Under the pieces are notes generated by a model, which was not told where the DNA came from, ran no database searches, and worked only from the letters and a program-made list of their open reading frames with translations. Source: Phycisphaerales bacterium (GTDB lineage: Bacteria; Planctomycetota; Phycisphaerae; Phycisphaerales; UBA5793). Taken from it: 64,000 nt of DNA. Shown here piece by piece: positions 4,403 to 63,071 of the stretch (positions are counted from its first letter, which is position 1; every line of letters starts with the position of its first letter). The stretch is from positions 62,001-126,000 of the forward strand of contig JADZAS010000005.1 of assembly GCA_020852515.1 (NCBI GenBank), written 5' to 3'. Made by a program: the position numbers and the translations under genes.

Positions 4403-4428
4403 CGCCGCTTCTCCTGTTGGACCTCACA

Positions 4429-4447
4429 TACTATGCGTCACATAGTA
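4429..4447. promoter_or_regulatory. Probable PadR operator (TACTATG-N5-CATAGTA)
   Basis: This perfect inverted repeat has 7-bp arms (TACTATG and CATAGTA) and a 5-bp spacer. It sits in the 187-bp gap between divergent padR (start 4402) and the TPR gene (start 4590). It is strikingly AT-rich against the local GC-rich background. Symmetric operators of this general form, with ATGT/ACAT-type half sites, are known for PadR proteins. Binding here is inferred from symmetry and position. Confidence 0.7.
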
Positions 4448-4589
4448 ATTGGTCCAGCGCGCCTGGGGGGGCTTTTCGGACCATTCTCCGACGCGGCTCT
4501 GACGGCTGTTCGGGCTTGCCCGGTGCTTTGACTGCGGCCGGGGGCGGGGTGTGCTCAACAACCGCCGCGGCCCGCTCGATACTGGCCGC

Positions 4590-5177
4590 ATGGGTGGATT
4601 CCGCAAGATCAAGCCGGCTCTGTACCTCGCCATGACCTGCGTCTCGCTCTACGGGGCGGCGCGCCTCGTTGAGCCGCTGCTCGTGCTGCGGGAGAAGGGT
4701 CTGGGACCGCAGGCAGCGCTCGGCCTGCTCACCGGCGCGGCCGGAGCCAAAATGAACTCTGACATCGCCAAACAACTCCCGGCGGGCGCGGGCGATCTCA
4801 ACAGCCTGCTCGCCCGGGCCGGACTCGCATCGTCTGATGGAACCGCGGCTGATGCCGCGCCGGCCGAGCCGCGCGAGATCATCATCCGCGACGTGCGCTT
4901 TGTCGATCAACCGCGCGCCCACCGCGACCTGTTCGCCGCAGCGATCGAGCATCAGAGCAAAGGCCAACTTGAACAGGCCGAGTCGCTCTACCTGCAGATT
5001 CTCGCCGCCGACCCCGATGACACCGGCGTGCACCGCAACCTCGCGGTGCTCTACTGCCAGATGGAGAAGTACGAGCAGTCGTGGCGCCACGTGCACGCAC
5101 TGCGCGACCTCGGGCGGGAGATGCCCGAGGGGTTCATCGACGTGCTCCGCGCCGCGATGGAGGAACCGGGTGCGTGA
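4590..5177 (+). CDS. Membrane-anchored TPR-like protein
   Basis: The 195-residue product begins MGGFRKIKPALYLAMTCVSLYGAARLV, one N-terminal membrane segment or uncleaved signal anchor. An Ala/Gly-rich linker follows. Residues about 110-165 then form a tetratricopeptide-like helical pair ('AAIEHQSKGQLEQAESLYLQILAADPDDTGVHRNLAVLYCQMEKYEQSWRHV', split here for description: core 'GQLEQAESLYLQIL'). TPR units mediate protein-protein contacts. It is divergent from padR across the putative operator, so it may share that control. The stop codon lies inside the first unit of an 8-bp tandem repeat. An upstream ATG at 4551 is possible but gives no better signal. Confidence 0.75.
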   Translation: MGGFRKIKPALYLAMTCVSLYGAARLVEPLLVLREKGLGPQAALGLLTGAAGAKMNSDIAKQLPAGAGDLNSLLARAGLASSDGTAADAAPAEPREIIIRDVRFVDQPRAHRDLFAAAIEHQSKGQLEQAESLYLQILAADPDDTGVHRNLAVLYCQMEKYEQSWRHVHALRDLGREMPEGFIDVLRAAMEEPGA

Positions 5178-5221
5178 GGGAGTGATGGGGTGAACGGGTG
5201 ACGGGATGAGGGGGTGACGGG
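5174..5221. repeat. 8-bp tandem repeat, six units (consensus GTGACGGG)
   Basis: The 48 bases read as six adjoining octamers: GTGAGGGA, GTGATGGG, GTGAACGG, GTGACGGG, ATGAGGGG and GTGACGGG. All match the consensus in at least six positions. The array begins on the stop codon of the TPR gene and lies upstream of the next lipoprotein gene. It is a degenerate minisatellite of unknown role. Confidence 0.85.
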
Positions 5222-5266
5222 GCCTCCTCGATGCCTCGCCGCTTCTCCCCGCATATGCTGTGCCGG

Positions 5267-5938
5267 ATGGACAACCGGCCGCTCAACCTTCTCGCCATCG
5301 CCCTGCTGCTGCTGCTCGCCGCCGGCGCGGCTGGCTGCGCTTCGCGCGGGCCCACCCGCGTCGAAGTCCGCCCCGCCAACTATGACGCCGCATTCGACGC
5401 CACTGTGCAGGCACTGCGCGATGAGCAGTTCCTGCTCGACCGCATCGATCGGCGCCTGGGCGTCATCACCACCCGGCCGCGGTCGGCCAGCAGTTTCCTC
5501 GAACCGTGGAAGGGCGACAACTCAAACGTCGCCCAGGCGGTTGAATCAACACTGCAGTACCAGCGGCGGATCGTGCGCATCGAGTTCGAACCCGTCGGCG
5601 GCGTCGCGGCCGAGACCGGCCCGGATACGCTGCCCCCCTTCGGCCAGGTCAGCCCCGCCGAGCCGTTCTTCATCCCGGCGGAGCATCGCGGCACGCTCGT
5701 TGTCAACGTCCGCTGCTTCGTCGAGCGCTCGCACCGGCCGGGCCTGCAGGTGCCCACGATGGCGGTGCGCAAGAGCAGCGTCACCGTGGACCCGTCGCTG
5801 CGCGAGCGCGGCATGACCGCTCAGTTTTGGGAGCCGATCGCGCGCGATGCCTCGATGGAGTCGCGCCTCAAGCGGCGCATCGCGGATAAGGCCGGCGCCA
5901 CGGTGCAGGTCAGCGAGCCGGCGCCGCCCGCGCCTTGA
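5267..5938 (+). CDS. Predicted lipoprotein of unknown function
   Basis: This 223-residue protein begins MDNRPLNLLAIALLLLLAAGAAGC, a type II signal peptide with the lipobox AAGC, so it should be lipid-anchored. The mature part contains 'VEVRPANYDAAFDATVQALRDEQFLLDRIDRRLGVITTRP', a pattern common in planctomycete lipoproteins in which a paralogue is compared with a reference state, then beta-rich sequence ending in a Pro-rich tail. The ATG at 5267 is preferred over one at 5231 because it gives a compact signal peptide. The 3' end overlaps convergent lipB by 29 bp. Function is unknown. Confidence 0.8.
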   Translation: MDNRPLNLLAIALLLLLAAGAAGCASRGPTRVEVRPANYDAAFDATVQALRDEQFLLDRIDRRLGVITTRPRSASSFLEPWKGDNSNVAQAVESTLQYQRRIVRIEFEPVGGVAAETGPDTLPPFGQVSPAEPFFIPAEHRGTLVVNVRCFVERSHRPGLQVPTMAVRKSSVTVDPSLRERGMTAQFWEPIARDASMESRLKRRIADKAGATVQVSEPAPPAP

Positions 5939-6650
5939 GTGCCGCTCTGAACTCTGCCGCCATGGCGCCCTTCACTTCATCCATCGGCGGTGCCGCAGGG
6001 CCGAGCAGTTGCTGCAGGCTTGTCACCGACCTTCCCATCAGGCCGCAGGGCACGATGGTGCGGAAGTGCTCGAGGTTCGTCGACACGTTGAGCGCCAGGC
6101 CGTGCATGGTGATCCACCGTCCGACACGGATGCCCAGGGCGCAGATTTTCGCCCCGCCGCCGCCCGCCGTGCATAACTCGCCTTCGCCCGCCCCGCCGAC
6201 CCACACGCCCGTCGCGCACGCGTCCCGATGCCCCTGCACGTCAAAATGCGCCAGCGTGGCGATGACGACACCCTCAAGCCAGCGCAGGTACGCCGCCACT
6301 CCCAGCCCGAGCCGCTGCAGATCAAGAATGGGGTAGACGACCAGTTGGCCGGGCCCGTGGTAGGTGATGTCGCCGCCGCGATCGGTTTCGCAGACCTCGA
6401 TGCCCAGCCGGGCCAGTTCGCCCGGCGGCGCGAGCAGGTGACCCCCTGCGCCGGGCCGGCGGCTCACGGTGATGACGGGGTCATGCTCGACGAGCAGCAG
6501 GAACATCGGCGCATCCGCCTGCCCCCGCTGCCGGGCCGCCAGCAGGACATCGCGCCGGCGGAGCTGCTCTTCGTACGCCTGCGCGTAGCGCATCCGCCCG
6601 AGGTCGATGACCTCCAGTTCGGCTCCCGCGCTGCCCGCCTGCACCGGCAC
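5910..6650 (-). CDS. lipB: Octanoyltransferase (lipoyl synthesis)
   Basis: LipB moves octanoyl from acyl carrier protein to lipoyl domains of 2-oxoacid dehydrogenases and the glycine cleavage H protein, the first step of de novo lipoylation. The 246-residue product has the signature RGGDITYHGPGQLV (91-104), the catalytic lysine region 'GGAKICALG' (Lys168) and the thioimidate cysteine in 'IVPCGLMGRSVTSL' (Cys202). An unusual Gly/Glu-rich insertion ('VGGAGEGELCTAGGGG') precedes the lysine. lipA is not adjacent. lipB is divergent from lpxA, with 41 bp between their starts. Confidence 0.95.
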   Translation of the reverse strand: MPVQAGSAGAELEVIDLGRMRYAQAYEEQLRRRDVLLAARQRGQADAPMFLLLVEHDPVITVSRRPGAGGHLLAPPGELARLGIEVCETDRGGDITYHGPGQLVVYPILDLQRLGLGVAAYLRWLEGVVIATLAHFDVQGHRDACATGVWVGGAGEGELCTAGGGGAKICALGIRVGRWITMHGLALNVSTNLEHFRTIVPCGLMGRSVTSLQQLLGPAAPPMDEVKGAMAAEFRAALKARAAPAR

Positions 6651-6691
6651 GGTCGATTGTAGAGCGAACCTGCGCGACTACGATTCAGGCT

Positions 6692-7531
6692 ATGAAACGA
6701 ATCGATCCCAGCGCGGTCATCGGACCTGAGGTGGAACTGGCGGACGACGTCGAAATCGGCGCCGGCTGCCGCCTTGAAGGCCGTATCACCATCGGCCCGG
6801 GCACGAGCCTCATGGGCTACAACTTCCTGCGCGGCCCGCTGTCCATCGGCGCCAACAACCGTTTCTATCCCTTCGCCTGCATCGGCTTTGAGCCGCAGGA
6901 TTACAAGTTCGACCCGTCGCGAGCCGGGGCCGGCACGGTCATCGGCAACGACAATATCCTCCGCGAGCACGTGACGATCCACCGAGCGACTTCCGAGACC
7001 GTCCCCACGCGCATCGGCAACAACAACATGCTGATGGTGGGCTCGCACGCGGGGCATGATGCGTGCGTTGGCAATCGCTGCATCTTCGCCAACAACGCGC
7101 TCGTCGGCGGTCACGCGGTGATCTACGACGGCGTGAATCTCGGGGGCTGCGGGGGCGTCGCCCAGAAAGTAGCCGTCGGGCGATTGGCCTTCGTCTCCGG
7201 CACGGTCGGCATCACGCGAAACGTCCCTCCATTCATGATCTCGCGATCCTTGCGCACCGTCGGCGGGATCAACATCGTCGGCCTGCGCCGCTCGGGCATG
7301 AGTCGCGACGAGATCGATCAGGTCAAGTGGATCTTCCGCACGCTCTTTCTCTCGCGCAACACGCGACCGACCATGGTCGAAACGCTCAGAGAGCGAGCGA
7401 CTGAATCCCCCGTCGTCGCGGAGACGCTGGCGTTTCTGCAGACGCACGCCGGACCGATCGCGGAACTCGAAGCGGGCAAAACCTCGCGCGAAATGACCGA
7501 AGCCGACGGCGTGGCGGCGCTGAGTGATTAA
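6692..7531 (+). CDS. lpxA: Acyl-ACP-UDP-N-acetylglucosamine O-acyltransferase
   Basis: LpxA adds a 3-hydroxyacyl chain to UDP-GlcNAc, the first step of lipid A synthesis in the cytoplasm. The 279 residues contain left-handed beta-helix hexapeptide repeats from the start ('IDPSAVIGPEVELADDVEIGAGC'). They also have 'IGFEPQDYKF' (cf. IGxxPQDLKY), 'HVTIHRAT', the catalytic histidine region 'GSHAGHDACVGN', and the C-terminal helical domain beginning 'GINIVGLRRSGMSRDEI'. Length is slightly above the E. coli enzyme. The presence of lpxA argues for an LPS-bearing outer membrane. lpxB, lpxC and lpxD are not in the window. Confidence 0.93.
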   Translation: MKRIDPSAVIGPEVELADDVEIGAGCRLEGRITIGPGTSLMGYNFLRGPLSIGANNRFYPFACIGFEPQDYKFDPSRAGAGTVIGNDNILREHVTIHRATSETVPTRIGNNNMLMVGSHAGHDACVGNRCIFANNALVGGHAVIYDGVNLGGCGGVAQKVAVGRLAFVSGTVGITRNVPPFMISRSLRTVGGINIVGLRRSGMSRDEIDQVKWIFRTLFLSRNTRPTMVETLRERATESPVVAETLAFLQTHAGPIAELEAGKTSREMTEADGVAALSD

Positions 7532-14063: not shown

Positions 14064-16121
14064 TTACAACCCCGCCACGTTGGACGTGGTGCAGGTCTGG
14101 ATGTCCAGCGCCTGCAGGAACACGTTGCCGCAGGCGTTCTGAGGCACGTTGCCGCTGATGCTCGCCTGGCCCTGGTTGTTGGCCGTCGGCGAGGCGACGA
14201 GCACCGCGGTGCGATCCAGACCCAGCGTCGTGCCGGCGCAAGGATTACCCTGCGGGATGCGCTGGCTGCCTGTGCCGGTGGCCCGGATGAACGCGACGCG
14301 CCCGCCGGGCGTGGCGCCGCCAGCCGTCGCCGTCATCATGCCCGGGCACGTGCCGCCGATCGCCAGCGACAGCGGCGGGCTGATCCGGACCAGTTTGCCC
14401 GTCGTGTCGAAGGGCACGCCGGTGTTGTTGGCCAGCGCGTAGATCTCGCCGTTGGCATCCTGGCCCATGCCGAGGATGAAGAAATCCACCTCGCCGCCGC
14501 CCGCGATGCGGAACTCCTGGATGCCGTTGTTCTCATCCAGGTGCAGCAGACGGCCGTCGTTGTTGAACTGCTGGCCGAACTCAGCGAAGATGTACGTTCC
14601 ATTGAGTGCGGGCATGGCGTTGCCTCGGTACACGAAGCCGCCGATGACCGAGATGCCTTCATCGTGATCGTACTGGGCGATCGGGTCGGTGAGTCCCGGG
14701 TCGATCATGCCGTCCGGATCGGCCGCGTATCCCGACCTTGCTCCGTTGCGCACGAAGCGGAACGTGCCCTCGCGCAGGTTCCAGCCGTAGTTGCGGCCGG
14801 ATTCGATGATGTTGACCTCCTCGATGTCGTTCTGACCCACGTCGCCCAGCAGCAGCGCGCCGCTGACTGAATCGAACGAGAAGCGGAAGGGGTTGCGCAG
14901 TCCGTACGCGAAGAGTTCATCAAGACCGTCGGCATTCACGAACGGATTGTCGCCGGGAATGCCGTACTGCCCGTTGGCGGAGTTGTTGCCCTGGGGGTCG
15001 ATGCGCACGACCGAGCCGAGGATGGTGTTCTTGTCCTGCCCGTTGCCCTTGCAGCCGTGGCCCTTGACCATGACGCCGAAAGGATCGATGCCCGTGTCCT
15101 GGTCGTCGGCGTTGCCGCCGTCGCCCAGCGAGATGTAGAGCATGCCGTCAGGACCGAAGTTGACGCAGCCGCCGTTGTGATTGAACTGCGGCTGATCGAT
15201 GCGCATGAGCACCCGGGCGCTGTTCGGATCGACCGTCGCGTTCGGATCGGTCGGGTTGTTCACGCGCCACTCGATGATCACCGTCTGGTGGTTAGGGTCC
15301 GTGCCTTGGGGCATCGTCGAAAAGTCGGCCGGCGGGCCGTTCGGGTCAAACGGCTCGGACGTGTAGGTGTAGAGCAGCCCGTTGCTCGCGTAGCCGGGAT
15401 GGAACGCGACGCCCAGCAGGCCGCGCTCGTCGAACGTGCCCTGGCCGAAGATGCCCAGCGGCACGAGCCGGCTGCTGGCGTCGAGGAAGGTGCTCTTGGC
15501 GCCCGTCGAGAGATCAACGTTCCAGATGATCCCGGTCTGATCGCTGACATACAGGCGCCCCGCGATGCCGGGGGCCGGGGCGGCCCAGTTGGGCGCCGTC
15601 ATGCCATCCGCCACCGTTTCGAGTCGAACGGTATGGCCGCTCAGCGGAATCGGGCCGGGCAGCGGGTCGCTGATCGGCTCAGGCTCCACCTGGCCGCGGA
15701 TCTCGCCGCCAGGGTGATTGCTCGTGTGCACGTTGACGTACCACAGGCCCTGGATGATCTGGTCGCGCTGCTGGCTGGTGACCACCTGCGAACCGACCTT
15801 CGGGCTGCCCAGCGGCAGGGTGATCGAAGGCGGGGCCGTCTGGCAGAGTGCCGCAGGCGCGTGGAAGTGCGCGGCCGTCTCGCCGCTGCTCAGGTTCTCG
15901 TAGGAGAAGTTCCACGAGAAGAGGTTGTTGGACAGATCGAGTGTGGCGGTACCCAGCCCCGTCGCCATCGTGTCCACGGGCGGCACCTCCTGCGAGCCGT
16001 CCAGCGTCAGATTGAAGTTCAGCACCTGCGCGTGCGACCAGGCGCAGGCGCAAAGCACGACCATCGACGTCGCCACGCGGCGCACGATGGTCAGCGGATG
16101 TCGTCGGTTGAGCAGTGTCAT
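14064..16121 (-). CDS. Secreted CHRD plus glucose/sorbosone dehydrogenase-like beta-propeller protein
   Basis: This 685-residue exported protein starts MTLLNRRHPLTIVRRVATSMVVL and has a signal peptide ending near Ala31. Residues about 33-146 form a CHRD domain ('NLTLDGSQEVPPVDT...ATGLGTATLDL...AAHFHAPA...GGEIRGQV'). Residues about 160-590 form a GSDH-type six-bladed propeller ('GLLGVAFHPGYASNGLLYTYTS', 'FNHNGGCVNFGPDGMLYISLGDGG', 'GSVVRIDP', 'AYGLRNPFRFSFD', 'GDVGQNDIEEVN'). A C-terminal domain ('GTCPGMMTATAGGATPGG...CTTSNV') is shared with the 12975-13766 product. It may be a PQQ-dependent sugar oxidase; cofactor use is not proven. Confidence 0.87.
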   Translation of the reverse strand: MTLLNRRHPLTIVRRVATSMVVLCACAWSHAQVLNFNLTLDGSQEVPPVDTMATGLGTATLDLSNNLFSWNFSYENLSSGETAAHFHAPAALCQTAPPSITLPLGSPKVGSQVVTSQQRDQIIQGLWYVNVHTSNHPGGEIRGQVEPEPISDPLPGPIPLSGHTVRLETVADGMTAPNWAAPAPGIAGRLYVSDQTGIIWNVDLSTGAKSTFLDASSRLVPLGIFGQGTFDERGLLGVAFHPGYASNGLLYTYTSEPFDPNGPPADFSTMPQGTDPNHQTVIIEWRVNNPTDPNATVDPNSARVLMRIDQPQFNHNGGCVNFGPDGMLYISLGDGGNADDQDTGIDPFGVMVKGHGCKGNGQDKNTILGSVVRIDPQGNNSANGQYGIPGDNPFVNADGLDELFAYGLRNPFRFSFDSVSGALLLGDVGQNDIEEVNIIESGRNYGWNLREGTFRFVRNGARSGYAADPDGMIDPGLTDPIAQYDHDEGISVIGGFVYRGNAMPALNGTYIFAEFGQQFNNDGRLLHLDENNGIQEFRIAGGGEVDFFILGMGQDANGEIYALANNTGVPFDTTGKLVRISPPLSLAIGGTCPGMMTATAGGATPGGRVAFIRATGTGSQRIPQGNPCAGTTLGLDRTAVLVASPTANNQGQASISGNVPQNACGNVFLQALDIQTCTTSNVAGL

Positions 16122-16386
16122 GTTGGCGTTCCCTTTCTCTCGAAGTTGCAGCAGGCTCACGGATGTGAAACCCCGATCGCGGCAGATGGATCGCGCAGCG
16201 CACCGGTTCGCCCTGCGCGCGTCAGCCGTCTTCACTCAGTTGTGCCCCGGGAATCAATCGGAGGGCGACCCGCCCCCACGAATCAGGGATGATGCGCAGG
16301 CCGCCCGTCCGCACACTTATGTCGGCGGCCGCGCGCCGTCTTGCAGCATTGCCGGCAGAATGCCAGCCGTTGCGCCGCGTCGAGCC

Positions 16387-27857: not shown

Positions 27858-28289
27858 TCAGGCCACCAGTCGCTCATCGTCATCCGCGACTTCGGCCGAG
27901 CGCGGAAACGCCAGCGGGCGCGGGGCCGGGTCGCGCAGGCGGTCGGCCGCCTCGCGCACGAGCTCGACGATCGCTTCGAGTTCGCGATCGAGCATCGGCC
28001 GGCTCGAGCGAGGCTTGACGAACAGCCGGCTCACCCAGCAGCCAAAGCCGTTGCGCTCCACGCCGCTGGCCGCGAAGTCCGCGACCCACTCGCGATCGTC
28101 GACGACGTACTGGAACGAATGATCGCCCGGCTCGATCTCGATTTCCGCGGTCCACCACCCGTCGCCGCGCCGCTGCATGAGGTGGCGCTGAGGCGACCAC
28201 TCGCAGAACGTGCCGGCCACGGCCACTGATCGCGCCTCGGGAAGATAGATCTCGAAGCGGTGCGTGCCTTGCGGCTGAGGCGTGACCAT
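27858..28289 (-). CDS. Stand-alone glycogen-binding-domain (CBM48/AMPK-beta-like) protein
   Basis: The 143-residue cytoplasmic protein starts with an AMPK-beta-type carbohydrate-binding module (residues about 7-80): 'RFEIYLPEARSVAVAGTFCEWSP', a 'GWWTAEIEIEPGDHSFQYVVDDREW' second half, and both key tryptophans (in FCEWSP and in REW). The position of the sugar-contacting lysine is Gln. The C-terminal half is helical ('LDRELEAIVELVREAADRLRDP'). It is one of two proteins with this module in the window; the other is the ParA fusion at 40590-41957. It is divergent from the 28360 lipoprotein gene. Confidence 0.85.
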   Translation of the reverse strand: MVTPQPQGTHRFEIYLPEARSVAVAGTFCEWSPQRHLMQRRGDGWWTAEIEIEPGDHSFQYVVDDREWVADFAASGVERNGFGCWVSRLFVKPRSSRPMLDRELEAIVELVREAADRLRDPAPRPLAFPRSAEVADDDERLVA

Positions 28290-33614: not shown

Positions 33615-35246
33615 TCACCGCCACACGTTCGTGGCTTCCGTCTCCTCGACATCGCGAGTGATGTTGTCGCTCCGCATGGCGACCGTGAAACGGACGTCAC
33701 CGGTCGTGACGTTCTTGACGGTGACGTTCCAGACGGCCTCGGCCTTGGGCGCGAGTTGCGCCAGCGGCGCAAGCGTGATGACATTGCCCGCGACTCTTCC
33801 GCTCGTCGCCCCGCTCACGGAGACGAATTGCTGGTTCTCCTCGAGCGTGCACACGAGAGTGATGTTGTGGTCCATCGCGGATCCCTGATTGGTGACGGTG
33901 ATCTGGTACGTCACGTTGTCACCGACGCGGATGGGGTCAGACAAGTCCACGACCTCGAGCAGAATCGCCGGGATGCCGCGCACCACGGTATCCGCAGTCG
34001 CGGTCACGGCCGAGGCGCAGTAGGCCTTGGCGGTGACAAGATTGCGGAGCGAGACGGGCTGATCCCCTCGCAGAGTCATGGAGACCTTCCTGGAGGCGCC
34101 CACGGCGATCGTGCCGAGTTTCCAAAGGACTTTGCCGCCGACTGCGGTCGCTCCATCAGAAGCAGCGACGAGCGCCGCGCCGGAGGGCGTGGCGCTTTCG
34201 AGCACCGTGTCCGTCGCCGCCGTGTCGCCCTTATTGGTCACGGTGATCTCGAAAGTCACCGGCACGGCGAGGAAGATCTCCTTGGGCCCGGACATGGTGA
34301 TCTCCAGGGCCGGTTCGCGCGCCGTGACGGACACAAGAGCCGACTCGGCCGTCAGATCGCCATCGCCCGTCGCGACAGCGCGGTTTTCAAACTTGCCTTT
34401 TGACCCCACCTCGGCGCGGAAGGAGTAGCGCTTCATCTGCCCCGCCTCGAGCGTGCCCACGGCCGCTTCGAAGACGTTGCGACCTTCGACGGTGGTCATT
34501 CCCTTGGGCAGCGTGTCGATCACTCTCACGTTGTTGATGGCGCCGGTTCCGACGTTCGACACCTCGATGTTGTAGACGATCTCGTCGCACCGCACGACTT
34601 CAGCCGGACCGGTCTTGACGATCTTGAGCTTGGGCGACACGACGGGCACATTGGCGCAGAACGACGTGGCGTAGGTCACGCTCGCGCAGGCGCCGACCGT
34701 TCCCTCGGCTGCGGGTTTCGCGGTGACGACGATGTTCCTCGTTTCGCGCGGCGCCATGGTGCCGAGCACCCAGGAGATGCGCCCGCCGCCGGTCGAAGCG
34801 GACGGCGTCGATGCGTAGTACTCAAGGTTTTGGCCGAAATCTTCGTACAGAACGACGCTCTCGAGCGTGTTGGCCGTCAGATTGGTGACGAGGATCCTGT
34901 AGTTGAAGTTCTGGTTGAGCCTGGTCTCGTTGGGCATGCCCTTCTCGATGCCGAGCACGCTGGTGAGCGGATCGCCGGTTGGGAAGCACATGGCCGTCCA
35001 GCGCATCGTTCGGTCGTTTTTCATCGTCGGCCACCATTGCGGCGCCGCGCGCGCGGCGACCGGAGGCGCCTCTGGCGCCGCGGGCGGTGGAGTCGGTTCA
35101 GCCCGCGCGACCTGCTGCTCACGCACCACAGGTTCGGCGGGCTCCTGGCGCGTTTGCGAATCGTCGGTCGTCTCACACGCCGTCGCGAGTACGAGCGTCA
35201 GCGCGCCTGCGGCGCCTGCCGCCAACTTCCAGATACTGCTTCTCAT
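33615..35246 (-). CDS. DUF11-repeat lipoprotein
   Basis: The 543-residue product begins MRSSIWKLAAGAAGALTLVLATAC with lipobox ATAC. A Pro/Ala-rich linker follows, then four or more DUF11/immunoglobulin-like beta repeats ('NETRLNQNFNYRILVTNLTANTLE', 'CDEIVYNIEVSNVGTGAINNVRVIDTLPKGM', 'PVTFEITVTNKGDTAATDTVLES', 'GDNVTYQITVTNQGSAMDHNITL'). Each contains the typical 'I/V-T-N-x-G' signature. Proteins of this kind (for example chlamydial OmcB) form envelope or surface structures. An AGAAGG sequence 10 bases ahead supports the ATG at 35246 over one at 35255. Confidence 0.85.
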   Translation of the reverse strand: MRSSIWKLAAGAAGALTLVLATACETTDDSQTRQEPAEPVVREQQVARAEPTPPPAAPEAPPVAARAAPQWWPTMKNDRTMRWTAMCFPTGDPLTSVLGIEKGMPNETRLNQNFNYRILVTNLTANTLESVVLYEDFGQNLEYYASTPSASTGGGRISWVLGTMAPRETRNIVVTAKPAAEGTVGACASVTYATSFCANVPVVSPKLKIVKTGPAEVVRCDEIVYNIEVSNVGTGAINNVRVIDTLPKGMTTVEGRNVFEAAVGTLEAGQMKRYSFRAEVGSKGKFENRAVATGDGDLTAESALVSVTAREPALEITMSGPKEIFLAVPVTFEITVTNKGDTAATDTVLESATPSGAALVAASDGATAVGGKVLWKLGTIAVGASRKVSMTLRGDQPVSLRNLVTAKAYCASAVTATADTVVRGIPAILLEVVDLSDPIRVGDNVTYQITVTNQGSAMDHNITLVCTLEENQQFVSVSGATSGRVAGNVITLAPLAQLAPKAEAVWNVTVKNVTTGDVRFTVAMRSDNITRDVEETEATNVWR

Positions 35247-35766
35247 GTCGCACATCCCTTCTTGCGTTTCCCGCGCCCGTTCGGGGCCATGGCCACCCCG
35301 CGGGCGGTGTACTGCGCTCACTCGTCCGACGCGACGCGCGCTAGGGGTGAGCGTCCGAACTGGCTGATGAGTCATCGTGCAGTCGATGTCTCGACGAGGC
35401 CGATTGCGCCGCCTCGCTAGAGGCAATCATGCTTCAGTCAAGTCATCGTGCCATTGGTGCAGTTTGCCTGATTCGGTCTGCGCGGGGCGCGGCGGATCGC
35501 AGCGCGCAGCAAGCGCCTGACGCTGCAGGACTTGCCCGCGCGCTCATCCTGTGCCGCGCTGAAGAAGGTGCGGCGCAACCACTTCATAACGAGCATCTCA
35601 CCCCGAGGCTTCAGGGTCGAACTCGGGCTCGCTCTCGCTGGACGCACTGCAAACAGCGCAGCCGATCGTCTCACCGCCGCTCGTACTGCGACGCGTCGAG
35701 TACGTTCGGCCCAGGCGCTCCATGAGGCGTGTTCGAATCAGCAGACGCATGCTTCGCCGCGCCGGC
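35247..35766. other. 520-bp region without a confident gene
   Basis: It lies upstream of the DUF11 lipoprotein gene and downstream of the STAS gene, both on the reverse strand. Short open frames occur on both strands, but none has a ribosome-binding site, domain or composition suggestive of a gene. No tRNA, repeat or strong terminator is seen; the DUF11 promoter presumably lies here. Confidence 0.6.
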
Positions 35767-39100: not shown

Positions 39101-40561
39101 TCAGTTCAAATCGAGATGCGCCACGACGCAACCGCTCTCGTCGCGCACCAGGATGTGCACCCGCAGCGAGCCTTCGGCCAGCACCCGCCGCTGCCGCGGC
39201 TGGGCCGTGAACAGGTGCAGCACCGGCTCGGCGCACGCGTCGCCGCCCGCCGCCGCCAGCCACGGGTCCAACTTCACCAGCAGGCAGCCGTGCGCTTTCA
39301 CCCAGTCGCCCGCCGCGATCAGATGGTGCAGCGAAACGTCCCCGTCATCCTCGACCAGCGCGTGCAGACGCCCCAGCCGGTTGAATGCGAGTTCGACTTC
39401 CGGCGCCCGCGGGCACCTCGCGTCCAGCGGCCGCAGGTCGGGGAGCAGGGACACCAGCGTTGCGGCGGGCGCTGTGCTCGGCTCGTGCGGCTGAGACGGC
39501 GCGCCAGCCCTCTCGGTGGCGCCATCACTTCGATTCCGCTCGCGTGCGGACGCAACGGCACGTTCGTTCGGGTATGGAACCTCAACTACAGGCAGTTCAG
39601 CCGACCGCCCGGAGCGCGGTTCGACCGCTCCGGTTCTCAGCGCCGCCGGCCGCAGCGCGATGCGCGGCGGCGCGTCCCGGACGACTTCCGGCGGCACGCT
39701 TGCCGCCACCGGTGCCGGAGTCGGCGCCGCGACTGACGCCGCCCGCGGCGCCGCGCCGGCCTCGGCCAGCACCCGCGCGATGACCGCAGCGCTACCTTGG
39801 AGGCGATCGAACCGCCCGAGATGGCGCATCGGCACGGGCTGCATGCGACGCACCACCGCCCGCAGTTCGACATCGCAGCCGAGCGACTCTTCGCACGCCC
39901 GCGCGATGCGGCCGCCCGCTCGCCGTGCTGCATCATCCTCGCTGCCAACCACAATAAGGCACAGACGAGGCATGACCTCGACCACGGCCTGCAGCGACTT
40001 GACCTGCGCAAAGGCGGCGACGGTTGCCGCTTCGTCCGCCCCGGTGAGGAGCACAATCTCGTCGAACTGCGACCAGTCGACCTCGCCGGATGCCGATGGC
40101 GTCGGCGCCTCGATGGCCCAGCACGCCATCACGTCGCGCAGTTGCCTCACTGCCGACTCCAGCGTTGTCGCCGGGTGCGAGTCCGATCGCAGCGCCGCGA
40201 CGGCCTGCTGACCCGCCCGACCGGCGATGAGATCGAGCATCACGTGCGAGCCTCGCTCGCGCAGCAGCGCCACCGGGCCGAGTTCGCTCGCGAGGACGGA
40301 GGCAGCCTGTTCCAGCCACGGCCCCGCGATCACCGGCAGGTTGACGCGCATCATGGCGAGCAGCCGCCCGCGCGATCGCGGCTTGCCCACCGGCCGGCCG
40401 GGCTCATTTGGTGCTCCCGCCGGCGCGGGAAAACGCAACGGCTCGACCGCACTCCGGTCAGACACTTCGGCATGAGGCGGCGCCACCTCTGGATCAGTCA
40501 AAAACAGATCAGCCAGGTCGTCGTAGGCGTCGCGTGAGTATGGCAGGTTCGAGTTCGTCAT
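39101..40561 (-). CDS. Partner of the ParA/glycogen-binding fusion; P-loop-less ParA-like fold
   Basis: The 486-residue cytoplasmic protein starts 28 bp after the ParA stop and is co-transcribed with it. Its middle region (about 60-260) resembles a MinD/ParA fold without a Walker A lysine loop: 'GRLLAMMRVNLPVIAGPWLEQAASVLASEL' (core 'LPVIAGPWLEQAASVL'), 'WSQFDEIVLLTGADEAATVAAFAQVKSL' and 'RLCLIVVGSEDDAARRAGGRIARACEESLGCDVEL'. A Pro/Ala-rich linker and a C-terminal domain ('LGRLHALVEDDGDVSLHHLIAAGDWV', 'RVHILVRDESGCVVAHLDL') follow. Its start is MTNSNLPYS; a longer upstream frame overlaps the ParA gene and is rejected. Function is unknown. Confidence 0.72.
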   Translation of the reverse strand: MTNSNLPYSRDAYDDLADLFLTDPEVAPPHAEVSDRSAVEPLRFPAPAGAPNEPGRPVGKPRSRGRLLAMMRVNLPVIAGPWLEQAASVLASELGPVALLRERGSHVMLDLIAGRAGQQAVAALRSDSHPATTLESAVRQLRDVMACWAIEAPTPSASGEVDWSQFDEIVLLTGADEAATVAAFAQVKSLQAVVEVMPRLCLIVVGSEDDAARRAGGRIARACEESLGCDVELRAVVRRMQPVPMRHLGRFDRLQGSAAVIARVLAEAGAAPRAASVAAPTPAPVAASVPPEVVRDAPPRIALRPAALRTGAVEPRSGRSAELPVVEVPYPNERAVASARERNRSDGATERAGAPSQPHEPSTAPAATLVSLLPDLRPLDARCPRAPEVELAFNRLGRLHALVEDDGDVSLHHLIAAGDWVKAHGCLLVKLDPWLAAAGGDACAEPVLHLFTAQPRQRRVLAEGSLRVHILVRDESGCVVAHLDLN

Positions 40562-40589
40562 GATCGTCCGGCCCGTCGTCGTCTCCCGC

Positions 40590-41957
40590 TCATCCCGCCG
40601 GGTCTCTCGCCGGCGCGGCAGAATCCTCCGCCACGGTAAGCAGGCTGTGCAACTGGCCCGCGGCGCTCGGTTCGGTGCGCGGATTATCCGGGTCGATGAT
40701 CCAGTGCCCATCCACGACGAAGCGGTAGCGGTAACGCCCCGGCGGCAGCGTGAGCCAAGCCTCAAACTCCCCTTGCGACTCGTTGAATCGCATCGGCGTT
40801 TCCTGCGGCGTCCACTGATTGAAGTCACCCGCGATGAAAACGCGCTCGGCACTGTGCGCGGCGCGGTACACCATCCTGATGCGGCACCCGGTTGCCGCCG
40901 GCCGACGCTCCAACTCCACCGCGGCGGGAGTCGGCGCCGCTGCGGATGCGGGCCTGATGGACGCCGGCCGCATCTCGGCCTCGGCAAGACTCGTCGCCTC
41001 GCTCGCCTGCGTCTCGAAGCGCCGCTGCAGCAGGTAGCGGGCCCGCTGCGCCAATTCCGCGGCGCGGTTGCCGCCTTCGGCGCTCGGCCGCGGCCACGTG
41101 GGTCCGACGCACGTCTCCACCGCCGGAGCTGAAACATCAGCGGCCGCATGAACCGGAATCCCGTCAAACTCCGCGCGTCGCGGCGGGCGGTACGCCTCCA
41201 CCCACTGCGCCAGCGCTTCGTAATCCTGCCGGCCCGTGGACTCGGGCGCGTATTCGAAGATCGGCTGACCGAAACTCGCCGCCTCGCGCAGCGAAGCGCA
41301 GAAGCGAATCGTGATCGGCGCCACGCTCTGGCCATAGCGCCGCCGGAGTTCTTCGAGAATCTCGCGCGACAGACGGACGCCCTCATCGAACATTGTCGGC
41401 AGCAGCACCACCGAGAGCGACCGCCCGATGCGCCGCGCCACCGTGTCGATGGTGCGAACCTGGTTTTCCGCCCCCTGCAGAGCAAAGTAACTTGTCTCGA
41501 CAGGCACGATGATCTCGCTGCTGGCCCGCAGCGCATTGAACGTCAGCAGGCCGATGTGCGGCGGGCAATCAAGCACGCACAGGTCATATCGCGGCGCGAC
41601 CCAGCGGAGCAGTTGCTCCAGGCGCCGGTCCCGGTCAGGCAGCCGCGACAGCCCGCCGCTCACCGCCTCGAGAGCCGCAAGCCGCACCGAGCTGGGAATG
41701 AGATCAAGATTGTCCCCCGCCTGCCACGTCAGGTCGGTGGCGTCGAAGGAGCGATTGAGATCGGCCATCAGCGCATCGCCGATCTGCTTCTCGATCGACG
41801 TCGCCGGCACCGACAGCCCCAGCGCGCAGTGCCCCTGCGGGTCCAGGTCGATCAGCAGCACTCGCTTGCCCCGGCGCGCTGCGGCGGCGCTGAGGTTGAT
41901 CGCGGTGGTCGTCTTGCCGCAGCCGCCCTTTTGATTGATGATCGCGATGGTTCGCAC
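40590..41957 (-). CDS. ParA-family ATPase fused to a glycogen-binding (CBM48/AMPK-beta-like) domain
   Basis: The 455-residue protein opens with a deviant Walker A 'KGGCGKTT' (10-17), switch I 'LLIDLDPQGHCALGL' and Walker B 'CVLDCPPHIGLLTFNAL', the ParA/Soj/McdA signature of a nucleoid- or surface-binding ATPase. After about residue 260 an Ala/Pro/Arg linker leads to a C-terminal AMPK-beta-type module (about 358-443): 'VFIAGDFNQWTPQE', 'FEAWLTLPPGRYRYRFVVDGHW'. Both sugar-contacting tryptophans are kept and the AMPK lysine is Arg. It is first of two reverse-strand genes. ParA ATPases position plasmids, chromosomes, carboxysomes and granules, so cargo here may be glycogen. That cargo is inference. 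Confidence 0.87.
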   Translation of the reverse strand: MRTIAIINQKGGCGKTTTAINLSAAAARRGKRVLLIDLDPQGHCALGLSVPATSIEKQIGDALMADLNRSFDATDLTWQAGDNLDLIPSSVRLAALEAVSGGLSRLPDRDRRLEQLLRWVAPRYDLCVLDCPPHIGLLTFNALRASSEIIVPVETSYFALQGAENQVRTIDTVARRIGRSLSVVLLPTMFDEGVRLSREILEELRRRYGQSVAPITIRFCASLREAASFGQPIFEYAPESTGRQDYEALAQWVEAYRPPRRAEFDGIPVHAAADVSAPAVETCVGPTWPRPSAEGGNRAAELAQRARYLLQRRFETQASEATSLAEAEMRPASIRPASAAAPTPAAVELERRPAATGCRIRMVYRAAHSAERVFIAGDFNQWTPQETPMRFNESQGEFEAWLTLPPGRYRYRFVVDGHWIIDPDNPRTEPSAAGQLHSLLTVAEDSAAPARDPAG

Positions 41958-42065: not shown

Positions 42066-43685
42066 CTATGGCTCGCTGCCCGGCTGGCGGCTCACGTGGT
42101 AGAGGCGCATCTCCAGCGCCGCCGCCTCGCTCCCTCTGGCCGGCGTCGAACTCGCCCGCAGGTCGAGCGACCAGCCGTGCAGCCGGGCCTGCTCGAGCAC
42201 TTCGCCCAGACCGCGATCGGTCACGATCAGCCAGACCATCTCCCTGCCTTCAACCGCCTCGGCCAGTTCGGCCGGCGAGGCGAGCACCGGCTGCGAGCGG
42301 TGCAGCATCACCTGCAGCGGCGCCACGCCCGTGCGATAGAACTCGAGCGGAAGCGGCTGGGCTTCGATCTCCGGCCGAACCTCGCGGGCAAACTCCCAGA
42401 GTGATTCCGACAGTGGATGTCTCACTGCATACGCGTTGAGGCGCTCGTGCACGATGAGCGCTGCCGTGGTGAGCGCCGCGGTGGCGAGGATGAGCGCCGG
42501 CTGCCGGGCGGCGAGTCTCCAGCCCAGATGCGCCAGGCACCACGCCGTCACCAGCGACGCCGAGACATACGCCGAAGCGATGTAATCGGCCCGCTTGCCC
42601 GCAGAGAGTGTGAACGCCAGCACGACGAGCACCGTGTAAATCACGCCGCTGCGCATCCATTGGCGCGCCGGATCCACCGCCGTGCCCTCGGCCCGAATCG
42701 TTCCGCGGCCGCGCCGCAGGTCGATGAGCGCGCCAAAGAAAAAGACCGACCACGGCAGGAATCGCGTCACGAAGTAGAGCGGCATGTTCAGCGCCGTTCG
42801 CAGCAGATCCCATGGCCCATGCTTCACGCCCTCATCGCCCGTGCCCATCGCGCGATCGACGAACTCCTCGCGAATGAGCGTGTTGTAGAGGTGATCGGGA
42901 TTGACCCACCACACGAGCCCCAGCCAGGCCACGGTAACGCCCAGCACGAGCGGCAGGCCCCAGTGCGCGCCGCACTGCCGCAGCGCCCAGCCCGCTCGCC
43001 GCAGCCGCGCCGCCGGGCCGCTGCCTGGCTCGGCTGTAAAGCAGCCCAGCGCCACGATGAACAGCGGAATGAGCAGGGCCGGCGGGCCTTTGGTCAGCAC
43101 CGCCAGCGCGCACGCGATCCAGACCACCGCCCGCCACCGGTTGCGCTTCGCAGCGCCCGCCGCGCCGCTGAGCACCACCGTCGCGCCGATCCAGCCCAGC
43201 ACGAGCCAGAGCGACAGCAGCGTGTCCGGCCGCACGAGCACGCTGAGTTTGAACCACGCGTAGTTCGACGCGAGGATCATCGCGGCGAGCGGCCCGGTCA
43301 GGCCTTTCGGATCGATGTGCTCGCCGAGCTTCCACAACAACGCGCACACCACCACGTACGCCAGCAGACTGGGCAGATGGTGCGGCCACTCCCATCGGCC
43401 CTGTGTGAGTTGCACCGCCGGCGTCGCGAGCCAGTTGTACAGCGGCGGCTTCGTCGCCGGGTACGCGCCCTGCTGCATCGGCAGCACCCACCGCCGCCAG
43501 TCGCCCGCGTGCAGGGCGAGATCAGTCGTATAAGCGCTGGTCTTTTCCTGCGTCTGGTCGTGCAGGTCGCTCGGTCCGGTCAGCCTCGCCGCGGGGACCA
43601 GCGCGCAGATCAAGACAGCCGCGATTGCAAACCAGCGGCTCCATCCACGTCTGACTGGCTTTTCGCGGTCCACGATGAAATTCAT
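42066..43685 (-). CDS. Membrane glycosyltransferase of the GT39/ArnT type
   Basis: The 539-residue integral membrane protein has 'SAYTTDLALHAGDWRRWVLPMQQGAYPATKPPLYNWLATPAVQ' (core 'KPPLYNWLATPAVQ', the PMT/ArnT first loop with an acidic site), then about ten hydrophobic helices ('LLAYVVVCALLWKLGEHI', 'LAALTKGPPALLIPLFIVAL', 'LPLVLGVTVAWLGLVWWV', 'SGVIYTVLVVLAFTLSAGKRADYI'). It moves a sugar from a polyprenyl-phosphate donor to a lipid or protein at the periplasmic face. Acceptor and donor are not deducible. A second ATG, at 43748, is less likely. Confidence 0.87.
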   Translation of the reverse strand: MNFIVDREKPVRRGWSRWFAIAAVLICALVPAARLTGPSDLHDQTQEKTSAYTTDLALHAGDWRRWVLPMQQGAYPATKPPLYNWLATPAVQLTQGRWEWPHHLPSLLAYVVVCALLWKLGEHIDPKGLTGPLAAMILASNYAWFKLSVLVRPDTLLSLWLVLGWIGATVVLSGAAGAAKRNRWRAVVWIACALAVLTKGPPALLIPLFIVALGCFTAEPGSGPAARLRRAGWALRQCGAHWGLPLVLGVTVAWLGLVWWVNPDHLYNTLIREEFVDRAMGTGDEGVKHGPWDLLRTALNMPLYFVTRFLPWSVFFFGALIDLRRGRGTIRAEGTAVDPARQWMRSGVIYTVLVVLAFTLSAGKRADYIASAYVSASLVTAWCLAHLGWRLAARQPALILATAALTTAALIVHERLNAYAVRHPLSESLWEFAREVRPEIEAQPLPLEFYRTGVAPLQVMLHRSQPVLASPAELAEAVEGREMVWLIVTDRGLGEVLEQARLHGWSLDLRASSTPARGSEAAALEMRLYHVSRQPGSEP

Positions 43686-44155
43686 CTCACTGGCATGAAA
43701 CGCAGCATAGCCGGGGAAGGTCGTTCCGGGTTTCCGCCCGGCGCCCATTATCGGCAGTGCGGTTTCGAAAGCACCTTAAGCGACGCCCCGATCGCGCCGA
43801 ATTGAATTGGGCAACATGTATCTCTCTCCCACCCAACCCGTTGCGCGAATGTCCGGCCTGGCGACCGGCCCCGCGCCCGAATTCTCCGGCTGCCTCCACG
43901 ACGCGGTCAGAACGGGATTCGGAGGCCACGGCGGCGATGACTTCCAGCCCGGACCCGAACCGATCGACCTCTTCCCCGCGTGGCTCGCGGGAGGAATCGT
44001 CGTCGGCCTGAGCTGCGTCTTCTGGATCGGGCTGCTGACCATCGTCGGCTGGATCGTCTGATCCATCGCGCCGCCATCGCCCGGCTCATCGCACATCCCG
44101 TATCATGAACACGGCCCGGTTTCCGCCGCGCCTCGATTCATCTACGGAGAGCGCC
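43686..44155. other. 470-bp divergent region holding a possible small membrane gene
   Basis: It lies between the reverse-strand GT39-type gene and the forward iron-type binding lipoprotein. The one open frame of interest (43816-44061) is listed separately. Otherwise no repeat, hairpin or tRNA is visible. Confidence 0.55.
43816..44061 (+). CDS. Small membrane protein, hypothetical
   Basis: The 81-residue product from the ATG at 43816 has a hydrophilic Gly/Pro-rich N-terminus and a single C-terminal helix ('FPAWLAGGIVVGLSCVFWIGLLTIVGWIV'). The helix is at the extreme end, giving a tail-anchored topology. An in-frame TTG lies at 43807. A ribosome-binding site is weak. It sits between divergent genes and may be real, but could also be chance in this GC-rich context. 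Confidence 0.45.
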   Translation: MYLSPTQPVARMSGLATGPAPEFSGCLHDAVRTGFGGHGGDDFQPGPEPIDLFPAWLAGGIVVGLSCVFWIGLLTIVGWIV

Positions 44156-60851: not shown

Positions 60852-63071
60852 ATGGTGGAGGGGCACGCCGTGACTCCGGAGCGCCATCAGCGTATGCGCG
60901 AACTCTTTGAGGTGGCGATCGACCTCGAGGACGAGGACTGCCGTCAGTTTCTGGCCAATGCCTGCAAGGGGGACGACGAACTGTGCCGCGAGGTGCAACT
61001 GCTGCTGAGCAGCCATCGGCGTCCCGGTGAATTCCTGGATACTCCCGCAGTCATTCTCGCCGACCCGGGCGACTTCGATACGGCCCAGCCGGAACTGACG
61101 GGAACTCGCATCGGCCGATATCAGCTGCTGAGCATCATCGCGCGAGGCGGGATGGGCATCGTCTACGAGGCGGTGCAGGATCAACCCCGGCGGATCGTGG
61201 CGATCAAGGTCATGCGGCAGGGGCTGGGCTCGCAATCCGCGCTGCGGCGCTTCCAGGACGAAGCGCAGATTCTCGCGAGGCTGCGGCACCCGAACATCGC
61301 TCAGATCTTCGAAGCCGGAACTCACAATGACGTCTCGGTGCGCAGTGGCGGTGAGCCGATTCCATACTTTGCTCTGGAGTACATACCCGGCGCGCGATCG
61401 ATTACCGACCATGCGAGCGCGCGTGGGCTTTCGATACGCGATCGCCTGGCGCTCTTGGTCAAGGTCTGTGACGCCGTGCATCACGGGCACCAGAAGGGCA
61501 TCATCCACCGCGACATCAAGCCAGCGAACATCCTGGTCGATTCCGATGGCGAGCCAAAGGTGATCGACTTCGGAGTGGCGCGCGTGACGGAATCGGATGT
61601 CGCCGTCACGTCCCGGCAGACGCAGATGGGTCAGATCCTCGGCACGGTGCAGTACATGAGCCCCGAGCAGTGCGAGAGCGATCCGCACGACATCGACAGC
61701 CGAAGCGACGTCTACTCGCTGGGCATCCTCGCCTATGAACTGCTCAGCGGACAGGTCGCCTACGACACGAGCAGTTCGAGCCTTCTGCAGGCGGCGAGGA
61801 TGATCCAGGGGACGGCGCCCAAGCCCCTGTCCATGATCGACCGGCGCTTGCGCGGCGACATCGAGACCATCGTCGCCAAGGCGATGGAGAAGGATCGCGA
61901 GCGGCGCTACCAGTCAGCCGAGGCGCTTAAGAAAGACATCGATCGATACCTGAACGGCGAGCCGATCGAGGCGAGGCGGCGATCGGCGTGGGTCGGGGCG
62001 ACGCGCTGGATGGGGAAGCACCCGATCTTCACCTCGGCGATGGGCGCGACGCTGGTGGCGGTGATCATCCTGTCTACCGCGATCCTGGCTGTGTATTACG
62101 GCGTTCGGCGACCGAGCCATTATGAGTACTCAGCCAATCACAACACCGCCTGGCTCAAGAGCGGCCTGGGGGCGCAGCTGGAAACGCTCGGAGGGGCTGA
62201 AGAGCCTCCGGACTGCGTGAAAGCGATGATCGTGCCCCGGCCGAGTCGCTTCGGGGGCGGGCGCGTTACGCTGTACTGCGTCAAGTCGGGTCAGCATTCG
62301 ACGGGGCAGCAACTGTGGGTGTGCGATCCGGACGATCTCGACACGCCGGTCTGGTCGACCGGGAATGACCCGCTTCGAACGCGACCCGCCATTCGGGTCA
62401 AAGAGATGGCCGAGTCGAGCGATCAGGGTTACCTCACCTACGACTTTGCTGTCGCCGATGTGTTCCCGGAGGTGCCCGGGAACGAGATCATCGTGGTCCA
62501 TGAGCAGGTGTCCGACTCTCCCAATGCCATTCGCGTGTATGACTTTGGGGGAAACGTGCTCTTTGAAGCGTGGCACTTCGGGCACCTGGCGCAGGTCCGG
62601 TGGTGGGCACGGGAAGGGCTCCTGATCGCAGCCGGTGATCGGCACGGCATTCCCGACATTCTGCGAAACGGTTTCGGGTATCCGCCGCCGTGGCCGAAGG
62701 TCGTCATGGCGCTGCGGCCCCGCCTCGGTGGGCGTTTTGGCTGGGCCAACGAACGCGACTGGCCCGACGACTGGCGCACGGATCCGAACATCACGGAGAC
62801 GCTCGTGTGGTACAAGGTGCTCATGCCGGAGGAATGGTGGCAGGAGTTCAACTCTCCCATGGTCGACATACCGTCGGGCGCCGGCACGGGCGGCCCCTGC
62901 GTGGTGATCCACTTTGATGCATCGAAGCAAGTCGGCATGTCGTTGCAGGTGAATGCGACGGGCGATCGGATCGTCCTTCAATCCAATGATGAATTTCGCA
63001 AGTTGAGATCAGCATTCCCCGAGGAGTCGCCCACGCTTGTGGAGTGGCCTCCGAAGAAGGATGACCGGTAG
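60852..63071 (+). CDS. Membrane Ser/Thr protein kinase with large extracytoplasmic domain
   Basis: The 739-residue protein has an N-terminal helical domain (1-80), a kinase domain (about 88-370) with 'IARGGMGIVYEA' (glycine loop), Lys119 in 'VAIKVM', 'HRDIKPANI' (219-227) and 'DFGVARV' (239-245), and one membrane helix (about 393-416). The C-terminal 320 residues are outside and have beta-rich, Trp/Pro-rich sequence ('VTLYCVKSGQHSTGQQLWVCDPDDL', 'VPGNEIIVVHEQVSDSPNAIRVYDFGGNVLFEAW', core 'AIRVYDFGGNVLFEAW') like a propeller sensor. All catalytic residues are kept. It is coupled with the upstream ECF sigma gene. Confidence 0.93.
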   Translation: MVEGHAVTPERHQRMRELFEVAIDLEDEDCRQFLANACKGDDELCREVQLLLSSHRRPGEFLDTPAVILADPGDFDTAQPELTGTRIGRYQLLSIIARGGMGIVYEAVQDQPRRIVAIKVMRQGLGSQSALRRFQDEAQILARLRHPNIAQIFEAGTHNDVSVRSGGEPIPYFALEYIPGARSITDHASARGLSIRDRLALLVKVCDAVHHGHQKGIIHRDIKPANILVDSDGEPKVIDFGVARVTESDVAVTSRQTQMGQILGTVQYMSPEQCESDPHDIDSRSDVYSLGILAYELLSGQVAYDTSSSSLLQAARMIQGTAPKPLSMIDRRLRGDIETIVAKAMEKDRERRYQSAEALKKDIDRYLNGEPIEARRRSAWVGATRWMGKHPIFTSAMGATLVAVIILSTAILAVYYGVRRPSHYEYSANHNTAWLKSGLGAQLETLGGAEEPPDCVKAMIVPRPSRFGGGRVTLYCVKSGQHSTGQQLWVCDPDDLDTPVWSTGNDPLRTRPAIRVKEMAESSDQGYLTYDFAVADVFPEVPGNEIIVVHEQVSDSPNAIRVYDFGGNVLFEAWHFGHLAQVRWWAREGLLIAAGDRHGIPDILRNGFGYPPPWPKVVMALRPRLGGRFGWANERDWPDDWRTDPNITETLVWYKVLMPEEWWQEFNSPMVDIPSGAGTGGPCVVIHFDASKQVGMSLQVNATGDRIVLQSNDEFRKLRSAFPEESPTLVEWPPKKDDR

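Follow-up and report, generated by a model that had tools for sequence, protein, structure and literature searches.

Two adjacent genes in the window (the whole stretch of 64,000 nucleotides analyzed here) encode a ParA-family ATPase with a C-terminal AMPK-beta-type CBM48 module and a partner protein with an FlhG/FleN-like fold that lacks the P-loop. In our view, the pair is most likely a spatial system of the ParA type, with an ATPase able to bind alpha-glucan. This reading is favored by the ParA motifs and Soj fold of the ATPase, the tryptophans of the CBM, the adjacency of the partner, an operon shared across phyla, and the ParB-like N termini of some partners. It is favored as well by the position of the fusion ParAs outside the canonical Soj group, by the match of the partner family to FleN, and by a GH57 gene adjoining the system in two Omnitrophota. 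The features of the pair are listed here by their positions in the window.

40590 to 41957, minus strand: gene 1, a ParA-CBM48 fusion of 455 amino acids with a GTG start (Pfam AAA_31 and AMPK1_CBM; orthologues in an estimated ~190 of 201 genomes of the order)
41193 to 41957, minus strand: Soj-like ParA ATPase domain, residues 1 to 255 (Foldseek match to T. thermophilus Soj)
41910 to 41930, minus strand: deviant Walker A motif KGGCGKT, residues 10 to 16 (invariant in alignments A2 and A3)
40977 to 41066, minus strand: linker helix with the RAAELA(R) motif, residues 298 to 327 (AF2 helix and the sequences of relatives)
40623 to 40859, minus strand: AMPK-beta-type CBM48, residues 367 to 445 (AMPK1_CBM profile and alignment to 2f15)
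40562 to 40589, no strand: gap of 28 bp between the co-oriented genes 1 and 2 (gene coordinates)
39101 to 40561, minus strand: gene 2, the partner, 486 amino acids (orthologues in 161 of 201 genomes; adjacent in 37 of 39 loci)
40499 to 40531, minus strand: N-terminal helix motif DDLADLFL, residues 11 to 21, a putative ParA-contact peptide (alignment A1, AF2, and the cross-phylum motif)
39764 to 40372, minus strand: FlhG/FleN-like domain without a P-loop, residues 64 to 266 (profile and AF2 fold comparison)
40313 to 40345, minus strand: segment VNLPVIAGPWL, residues 73 to 83, at the position of the FlhG Walker A loop (consensus GHLPVxAxxW)
39104 to 39457, minus strand: C-terminal domain, residues 369 to 486 (AF2 pLDDT mostly >88; hhalign to A5)

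The fusion ATPase and its adjacent partner

The ATPase domain of gene 1 matched Pfam AAA_31 (E = 1.5e-45), and its best structures by Foldseek were those of Soj from T. thermophilus (E = 1e-22 to 1e-24, at 38% identity). Gene 1 combines the deviant Walker A pattern KGGxGKT with the Soj fold, both marks of the ParA/Soj family, and the Walker A cysteine C13 was retained in at least 90% of alignment A2. At the other end of the protein, the AMPK1_CBM profile matched residues 367 to 445 (E = 4.1e-16; 59.4 bits against a curated cutoff of 26.8). A phmmer comparison with the solved CBM of AMPK beta-2 (2f15; E = 2.6e-12) aligned both sugar-stacking tryptophans, W382 with the first (W100 of AMPK beta) and W419 with the second (W133); the AMPK lysine between the two is an arginine in the window module. 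These matches bear out an earlier note on this DNA, which had described a ParA-family ATPase fused to an AMPK-beta/CBM48 module that keeps both tryptophans. The RAAELA(R) linker motif was retained in most Phycisphaerales, including several ParAs that have no CBM. Upstream of the ParA gene lies a PMT-like glycosyltransferase gene (42066 to 43748, minus strand), which holds the same position in several relatives; in most f2/f3 genomes, aroB stands there instead.

Gene 2 gave zero matches to Pfam and NCBIfam families. A profile of 34 partner sequences detected FlhG/FleN (E = 0.005), and FlhG and FleN were the best structural matches of the first domain (residues 62 to 264 in the structure list; Z of 11.9 to 9.7). 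The top comparison superimposed the AF2 model of residues 64 to 245 on FlhG 4rz3 (Z of 11.9; 161 residues; 4.0 Å). AF2 predicted two confident domains (residues 64 to 266 and 369 to 486) separated by a disordered linker, together with a lower-confidence helix at residues 11 to 21 (mean pLDDT about 68). The Walker A pattern was absent from 34 of 34 planctomycete partners, in which the family consensus at that site reads GHLPVxAxxW, and from 18 of 18 related proteins from other phyla, mostly Myxococcota. With gene 2 starting at 40561 and predicted to adopt an FlhG-like fold, the prior description of a gene 28 bp downstream encoding a MinD/ParA-like core without Walker A was correct. ParB CTPase and HTH domains were not matched by Pfam or NCBIfam in the window partner or its relatives. 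Upstream, the partner frame runs without a stop across much of the ParA gene, producing a mechanical open reading frame of 811 amino acids (39101 to 41536, minus strand); this frame is a high-GC artifact and masked the partner in automatic ORF selection.

The window ParA was matched in 197 of the 201 genomes of the order at an E value of 1e-30. The figure of ~190 orthologue carriers is an estimate from E values, and about a dozen weaker matches may be other ParAs. With a single-sequence query, the partner was found in 161 of the 201 genomes (E ≤ 0.001). Of 40 loci of up to 20 kb, 39 could be evaluated, and in 37 of these the partner was the gene directly next to ParA; in the two exceptions, both from genus g38, it lay ~9 kb away on the opposite strand. 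Spacing between the two genes in relatives ranged from overlap to 381 bp, with 28 bp typical. In the ParA tree, the named genomes that fall in the same region as this order belong to Phycisphaerales. Further families of the class also carry the fusion: f7, whose loci have an adjacent partner, and f9, which groups with named Sedimentisphaerales. At the loci of the f9/Sedimentisphaerales type (L125 to L128 and L269 to L272), the ParA-CBM fusion was kept and no adjacent partner was recognizable. Across 294 genomes of the phylum, zero matches at an E value of 1e-80 fell outside the class. Fusion and neighbor are thus present in related genomes, as the earlier note had required of a real system, and since the fusion point is kept in relatives, a frameshift or assembly artifact at that point was ruled out. 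To the further question of the note, whether the partner always lies next to the fusion, the answer was yes for nearly all evaluable loci of the order and no for g38; in the Sedimentisphaerales no adjacent partner was recognizable.

Operons in other phyla and the partner N terminus

When named genomes were scanned, Omnitrophota, Myxococcota, Rokubacteria, and Gammaproteobacteria all yielded ParA-CBM fusions, as did a MAG (L142) assigned to Planctomycetota without a class; among Myxococcota, the ParA was present in 20 of 113 sampled genomes. A tree of 110 ParA domains placed 22 CBM-less Soj-type rows from many phyla in one group (support 100/98) that included no fusions. The CBM-less ParAs of Phycisphaerales, whose loci keep the partner gene, nested inside the fusions, indicating that the CBM was lost repeatedly.

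Outside Planctomycetota, we found a new operon consisting of MerR, ParA with or without the CBM, an FlhG-like protein, and a third protein. Myxococcota and Gammaproteobacteria carry genes for MerR, ParA-CBM, a P-loop-less FlhG-like protein, and a third protein of ~200 residues, in that order. In Nitrospirota (L140, 5415 to 8410; L143, 5465 to 8388), MerR is followed by a ParA without CBM, an FlhG-like protein bearing an FLS motif, and the third protein. A conserved gene of the ATP-cone/P-loop kinase-like type and, downstream, an ECF-sigma-like gene border the Myxococcota operon (L257 to L291). Gene 2 of the other phyla matched FleN/FlhG (E = 6e-16) and was itself matched by the planctomycete partner profile (E = 4e-9). 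The C-terminal domain of the partner aligned to the third protein (A5) by hhalign in a colinear but weak fashion (E = 4e-4; probability 35%), and in L129 the gene 2 and gene 3 profiles both matched within one protein. Because the window partner aligns to both proteins and L129 matches both profiles, the window partner appears to be genes 2 and 3 of the other-phylum operon joined, with its residues 369 to 486 the likely equivalent of the third protein.

Variants of this arrangement were also observed. Gene 2 of L146 retains a P-loop-like GKGVRGKT, which fits descent of the partner from an active ATPase, and in Rokubacteria L138 the N-terminal motif is joined straight to the third domain. When its profile was compared with solved structures, the third protein gave a chance-level match to HdeA alone; from its sequence pattern, we suspect a degenerate PD-(D/E)XK fold. 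PADLOC defense models returned nothing convincing: one third protein had a weak match (E = 0.004), and the window partner had none, which by itself does not speak against a role in defense. In Omnitrophota L148 and L153 (and in part L141 and L149), a small protein with an apparent transmembrane stretch precedes ParA-CBM. Its N-terminal segment resembles those described below and reads EIYEHLANIYLD in L148 and L153. A GH57-type gene lies before the small membrane protein in L148 and L153 (Pfam was run on L148 only); in L148, the three genes occupy 3689 to 7107.

Partners of the ParA-type ATPase family commonly have N-terminal contact peptides (PMC10241942), and in Myxococcus xanthus the ParB peptide fits a pocket at the edge of the ParA dimer and triggers ATP hydrolysis (PMC12462528). 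The N termini of the partners studied here share the approximate pattern L-x-x-(V/I/L)-(A/S)-x-x-(F/Y)-L-(S/T). In L138, L146, L140, and L129, LGRGL-like residues, as in ParB, stand directly before the FLS motif; an LG[RK]GL-type pattern occurs in 25 of 31 canonical ParBs of these loci. We scored N termini for ParB likeness with a matrix from 24 ParB N termini of the same loci, using 414 other genes as background. The four partners ranked in the top 0.7 to 1.9% of that background, and the score was not significant for the window protein or for the Myxococcota and Gammaproteobacteria partners. By similarity, we infer a likeness between the N-terminal helix of the partner and the ParA-activating ParB peptide in four lineages.

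The CBM48 module and glycogen genes

Among 94 non-identical modules, the first tryptophan (W382) was retained in all 94 and the second (W419) in 89, being lost in 5; the position of AMPK K126 was R in 89 of 94. Judging from its sequence, we lean toward the CBM of gene 1 being able to bind alpha-glucan. The module is accessory to the core ParA-partner machine, since the Nitrospirota operon does without it and it has been dropped repeatedly in Phycisphaerales that kept the partner. We considered and rejected the idea that CBM-less genomes carry the module as a gene of its own, as the two apparent cases (G168 and G185) resemble contig breaks; no other CBM genes were seen close to ParA in these genomes. 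Genome G606 holds two ParA-CBM paralogues (L260 and L261), one in the operon and the other apart, with its second tryptophan gone.

The window also encodes a stand-alone AMPK1_CBM/CBM48 protein (27858 to 28289, minus strand; E = 3.7e-8) with AGTFCEW and DDREW motifs. The earlier note had taken this protein as a hint of wider glucan-related regulation; the protein is real, and no tie to the pair, ~12 kb away, was seen. A further stand-alone CBM, in a 148-amino-acid frame at G000:C3:47149-47382, likewise had no visible tie to the ParA pair. Other genes of the window encode a protein with a CHRD domain followed by a glucose/sorbosone dehydrogenase domain (14064 to 16235, minus strand), a protein with four DUF11 repeats (33615 to 35426, minus strand), and a 739-amino-acid protein with a protein-kinase domain (60852 to 63071, plus strand).

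Presence of the CBM did not significantly track glycogen genes. Across 51 Phycisphaerales genomes, GT5 was found in 12 of 18 CBM-less versus 26 of 33 CBM-bearing genomes (Fisher P = 0.50), GT35 in 10 of 18 versus 23 of 33 (P = 0.37), and GlgB in 13 of 18 versus 16 of 33 (P = 0.14), comparisons limited by the draft state of the genomes and their relatedness and by the existence of other synthases (GT4, GlgE route). The window's own genome encodes GT5-like and GT35-like proteins and gave no GlgB match by TIGR01515, and alpha-glucan enzymes of some kind occurred in most Phycisphaerales tested. A glycogen-cluster context in Phycisphaerales was rejected: no glycogen operon was found at the loci examined, and the neighbors are mostly housekeeping genes. 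GT5 synthase had no match in 17 of the 20 sampled Myxococcota with ParA, of which G604 and G605 also lacked GT35 and GlgB, and was present in 4 of 4 Omnitrophota genomes. Among the lineages, only the Omnitrophota, with their adjoining GH57 gene, point to alpha-glucan. The suggestion that the pair anchors or segregates glycogen was thus not upheld, given the loss of the CBM where the partner is kept, the three nonsignificant comparisons, and the Myxococcota that lack GT5. Glycogen granules are an unlikely cargo.

Candidate mechanism and competing explanations

In the proposed mechanism, ATP-bound ParA-CBM dimers would bind DNA nonspecifically, by analogy with Soj. The N-terminal helix of the partner would dock on the ParA dimer in the manner of the ParB peptide, stimulating ATP hydrolysis and release, and the P-loop-less FlhG-like domain, with no cycling of its own, would act as a scaffold or pseudo-subunit contacting ParA. 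The CBM, where present, would bind an alpha-glucan or maltodextrin chain, such that ParA could tether or sense the glucan or a glucan-bound enzyme. Regulation of the ParA ATPase by the partner is probable, and we give about even chances to the pair being a self-contained ParA-type spatial-organization system. The fuller proposal is more tentative and rather doubtful as a whole: an undescribed ParA class, spread across phyla, in which cargo binding falls to the CBM48 on the ATPase itself. That module would set glucan, or an enzyme bound to glucan, in place along the nucleoid, and the activator would be the FlhG-like protein that lacks the P-loop and bears a ParB-like N-terminal peptide. Several observations count against the spatial-system reading, namely, the nonsignificant ParB-like motif in the window protein, Myxococcota, and Gammaproteobacteria; the lack of a recognizable adjacent partner in Sedimentisphaerales and the distant one in g38; neighbors that indicate no cargo; and a CBM unlinked to glycogen genes.

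A narrow form of this explanation, in which the CBM tethers glycogen granules or alpha-glucan particles to nucleoid-bound ParA for positioning and segregation and the partner brings about release, seems improbable. The intact stacking tryptophans, the alpha-glucan enzymes in most Phycisphaerales tested, and the GH57 and GT5 genes of Omnitrophota agree with it; the lack of association between the CBM and GT5, GT35, or GlgB within the order, the Myxococcota without GT5 (G604 and G605 also without GT35 and GlgB), and the absence of a glycogen operon at the examined Phycisphaerales loci do not. We give similarly low weight to a nutrient-sensing regulator, in which a glucan or oligosaccharide on the CBM controls the ATPase. 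Together with its FleN/FlhG-like partner, the ATPase would then act on a transcription factor, MerR in the lineages that have it (compare FleN-FleQ and the CBM in AMPK). MerR lies upstream in Myxococcota, Gammaproteobacteria, and Nitrospirota, the partner fold is nearest to the antiactivators FleN/FlhG, and an ECF-sigma-like gene lies downstream in Myxococcota; however, no MerR was noticed beside the pair in Phycisphaerales or Omnitrophota, and the partner has no P-loop like that of FleN.

The CBM might instead have moved past sugar binding to become a protein-protein interaction module within a ParA system. Its conservation where no glycogen genes were found, the arginine at the K126 position, and the tolerated loss of the module are compatible with this idea, which we nevertheless judge unlikely, as the near-invariant aromatic pair serves mainly sugar and a surface used only to bind proteins should have drifted. 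Least probable is a BcsQ-like assembly factor for surface polysaccharide, with ParA and partner recruiting a glycan synthase to the pole or membrane. Gene 1 does match Pfam CBP_BcsQ (E = 2.8e-14), and its immediate upstream neighbor, in the window as in some relatives, is the PMT-type glycosyltransferase-like gene. Yet the TIGR03371 equivalog score was 94.2 against a cutoff of 157.85, the nearest structures are Soj rather than BcsQ, and with aroB upstream in most f2/f3 genomes, no synthase is conserved.

The ParA-type spatial system that we favor resembles several known systems in part. It shares with ParABS (Soj/Spo0J) a Soj-like ATPase and, in some partners, the ParB-like N-terminal LGRGL peptide, but it has a CBM48 on the ATPase and no recognized ParB CTPase/HTH in the partner, and most genomes also hold another ParA. 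Like McdA/McdB, which positions carboxysomes, it comprises two adjacent genes for a ParA-type ATPase and a partner with an N-terminal contact region; here, however, the partner is a folded pseudo-FlhG, the possible cargo-binding domain is on the ATPase, and no carboxysome genes were noticed nearby. Compared with FlhG/FleN of the MinD family, whose core fold and sequence kinship it shows, the partner has lost the Walker A loop, is joined to a third domain, and has no visible flagellar context. BcsQ(-BcsR) is also a ParA-like ATPase tied to glucans, but no bcs genes were seen here and gene 1 falls under the BcsQ cutoff. The module has the W100 and W133 equivalents of the AMPK beta CBM and CBM48 proteins, and it sits on a ParA rather than on a kinase subunit or GH13 enzyme. 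Storage-granule placement, the analogy drawn by the earlier note, is what it would share with PHB and polyphosphate granule positioning; PhaM, PhaF, and AlgP are DNA-binding granule proteins and not ParA systems (PMC13052382).

A 2025 review of organelle positioning covers carboxysomes, magnetosomes, and PHB and polyphosphate granules, and glycogen is absent from it (PMC13052382). In agreement with the earlier note, which knew of no such module, we found no description of one in the literature searched for ParA combined with CBM48, AMPK, or glycogen positioning, and the gene set is apparently undescribed so far. Storage-glucan placement in bacteria is hardly known, and here a compact gene set, present in nearly a whole order and several phyla, brings together a positioning-type ATPase, a glucan-binding fold, and a P-loop-less FlhG relative. 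Because some lineages have the CBM and others lack it, natural controls are at hand. Whatever its cargo, the set represents an unrecognized branch of ParA with its own type of partner.
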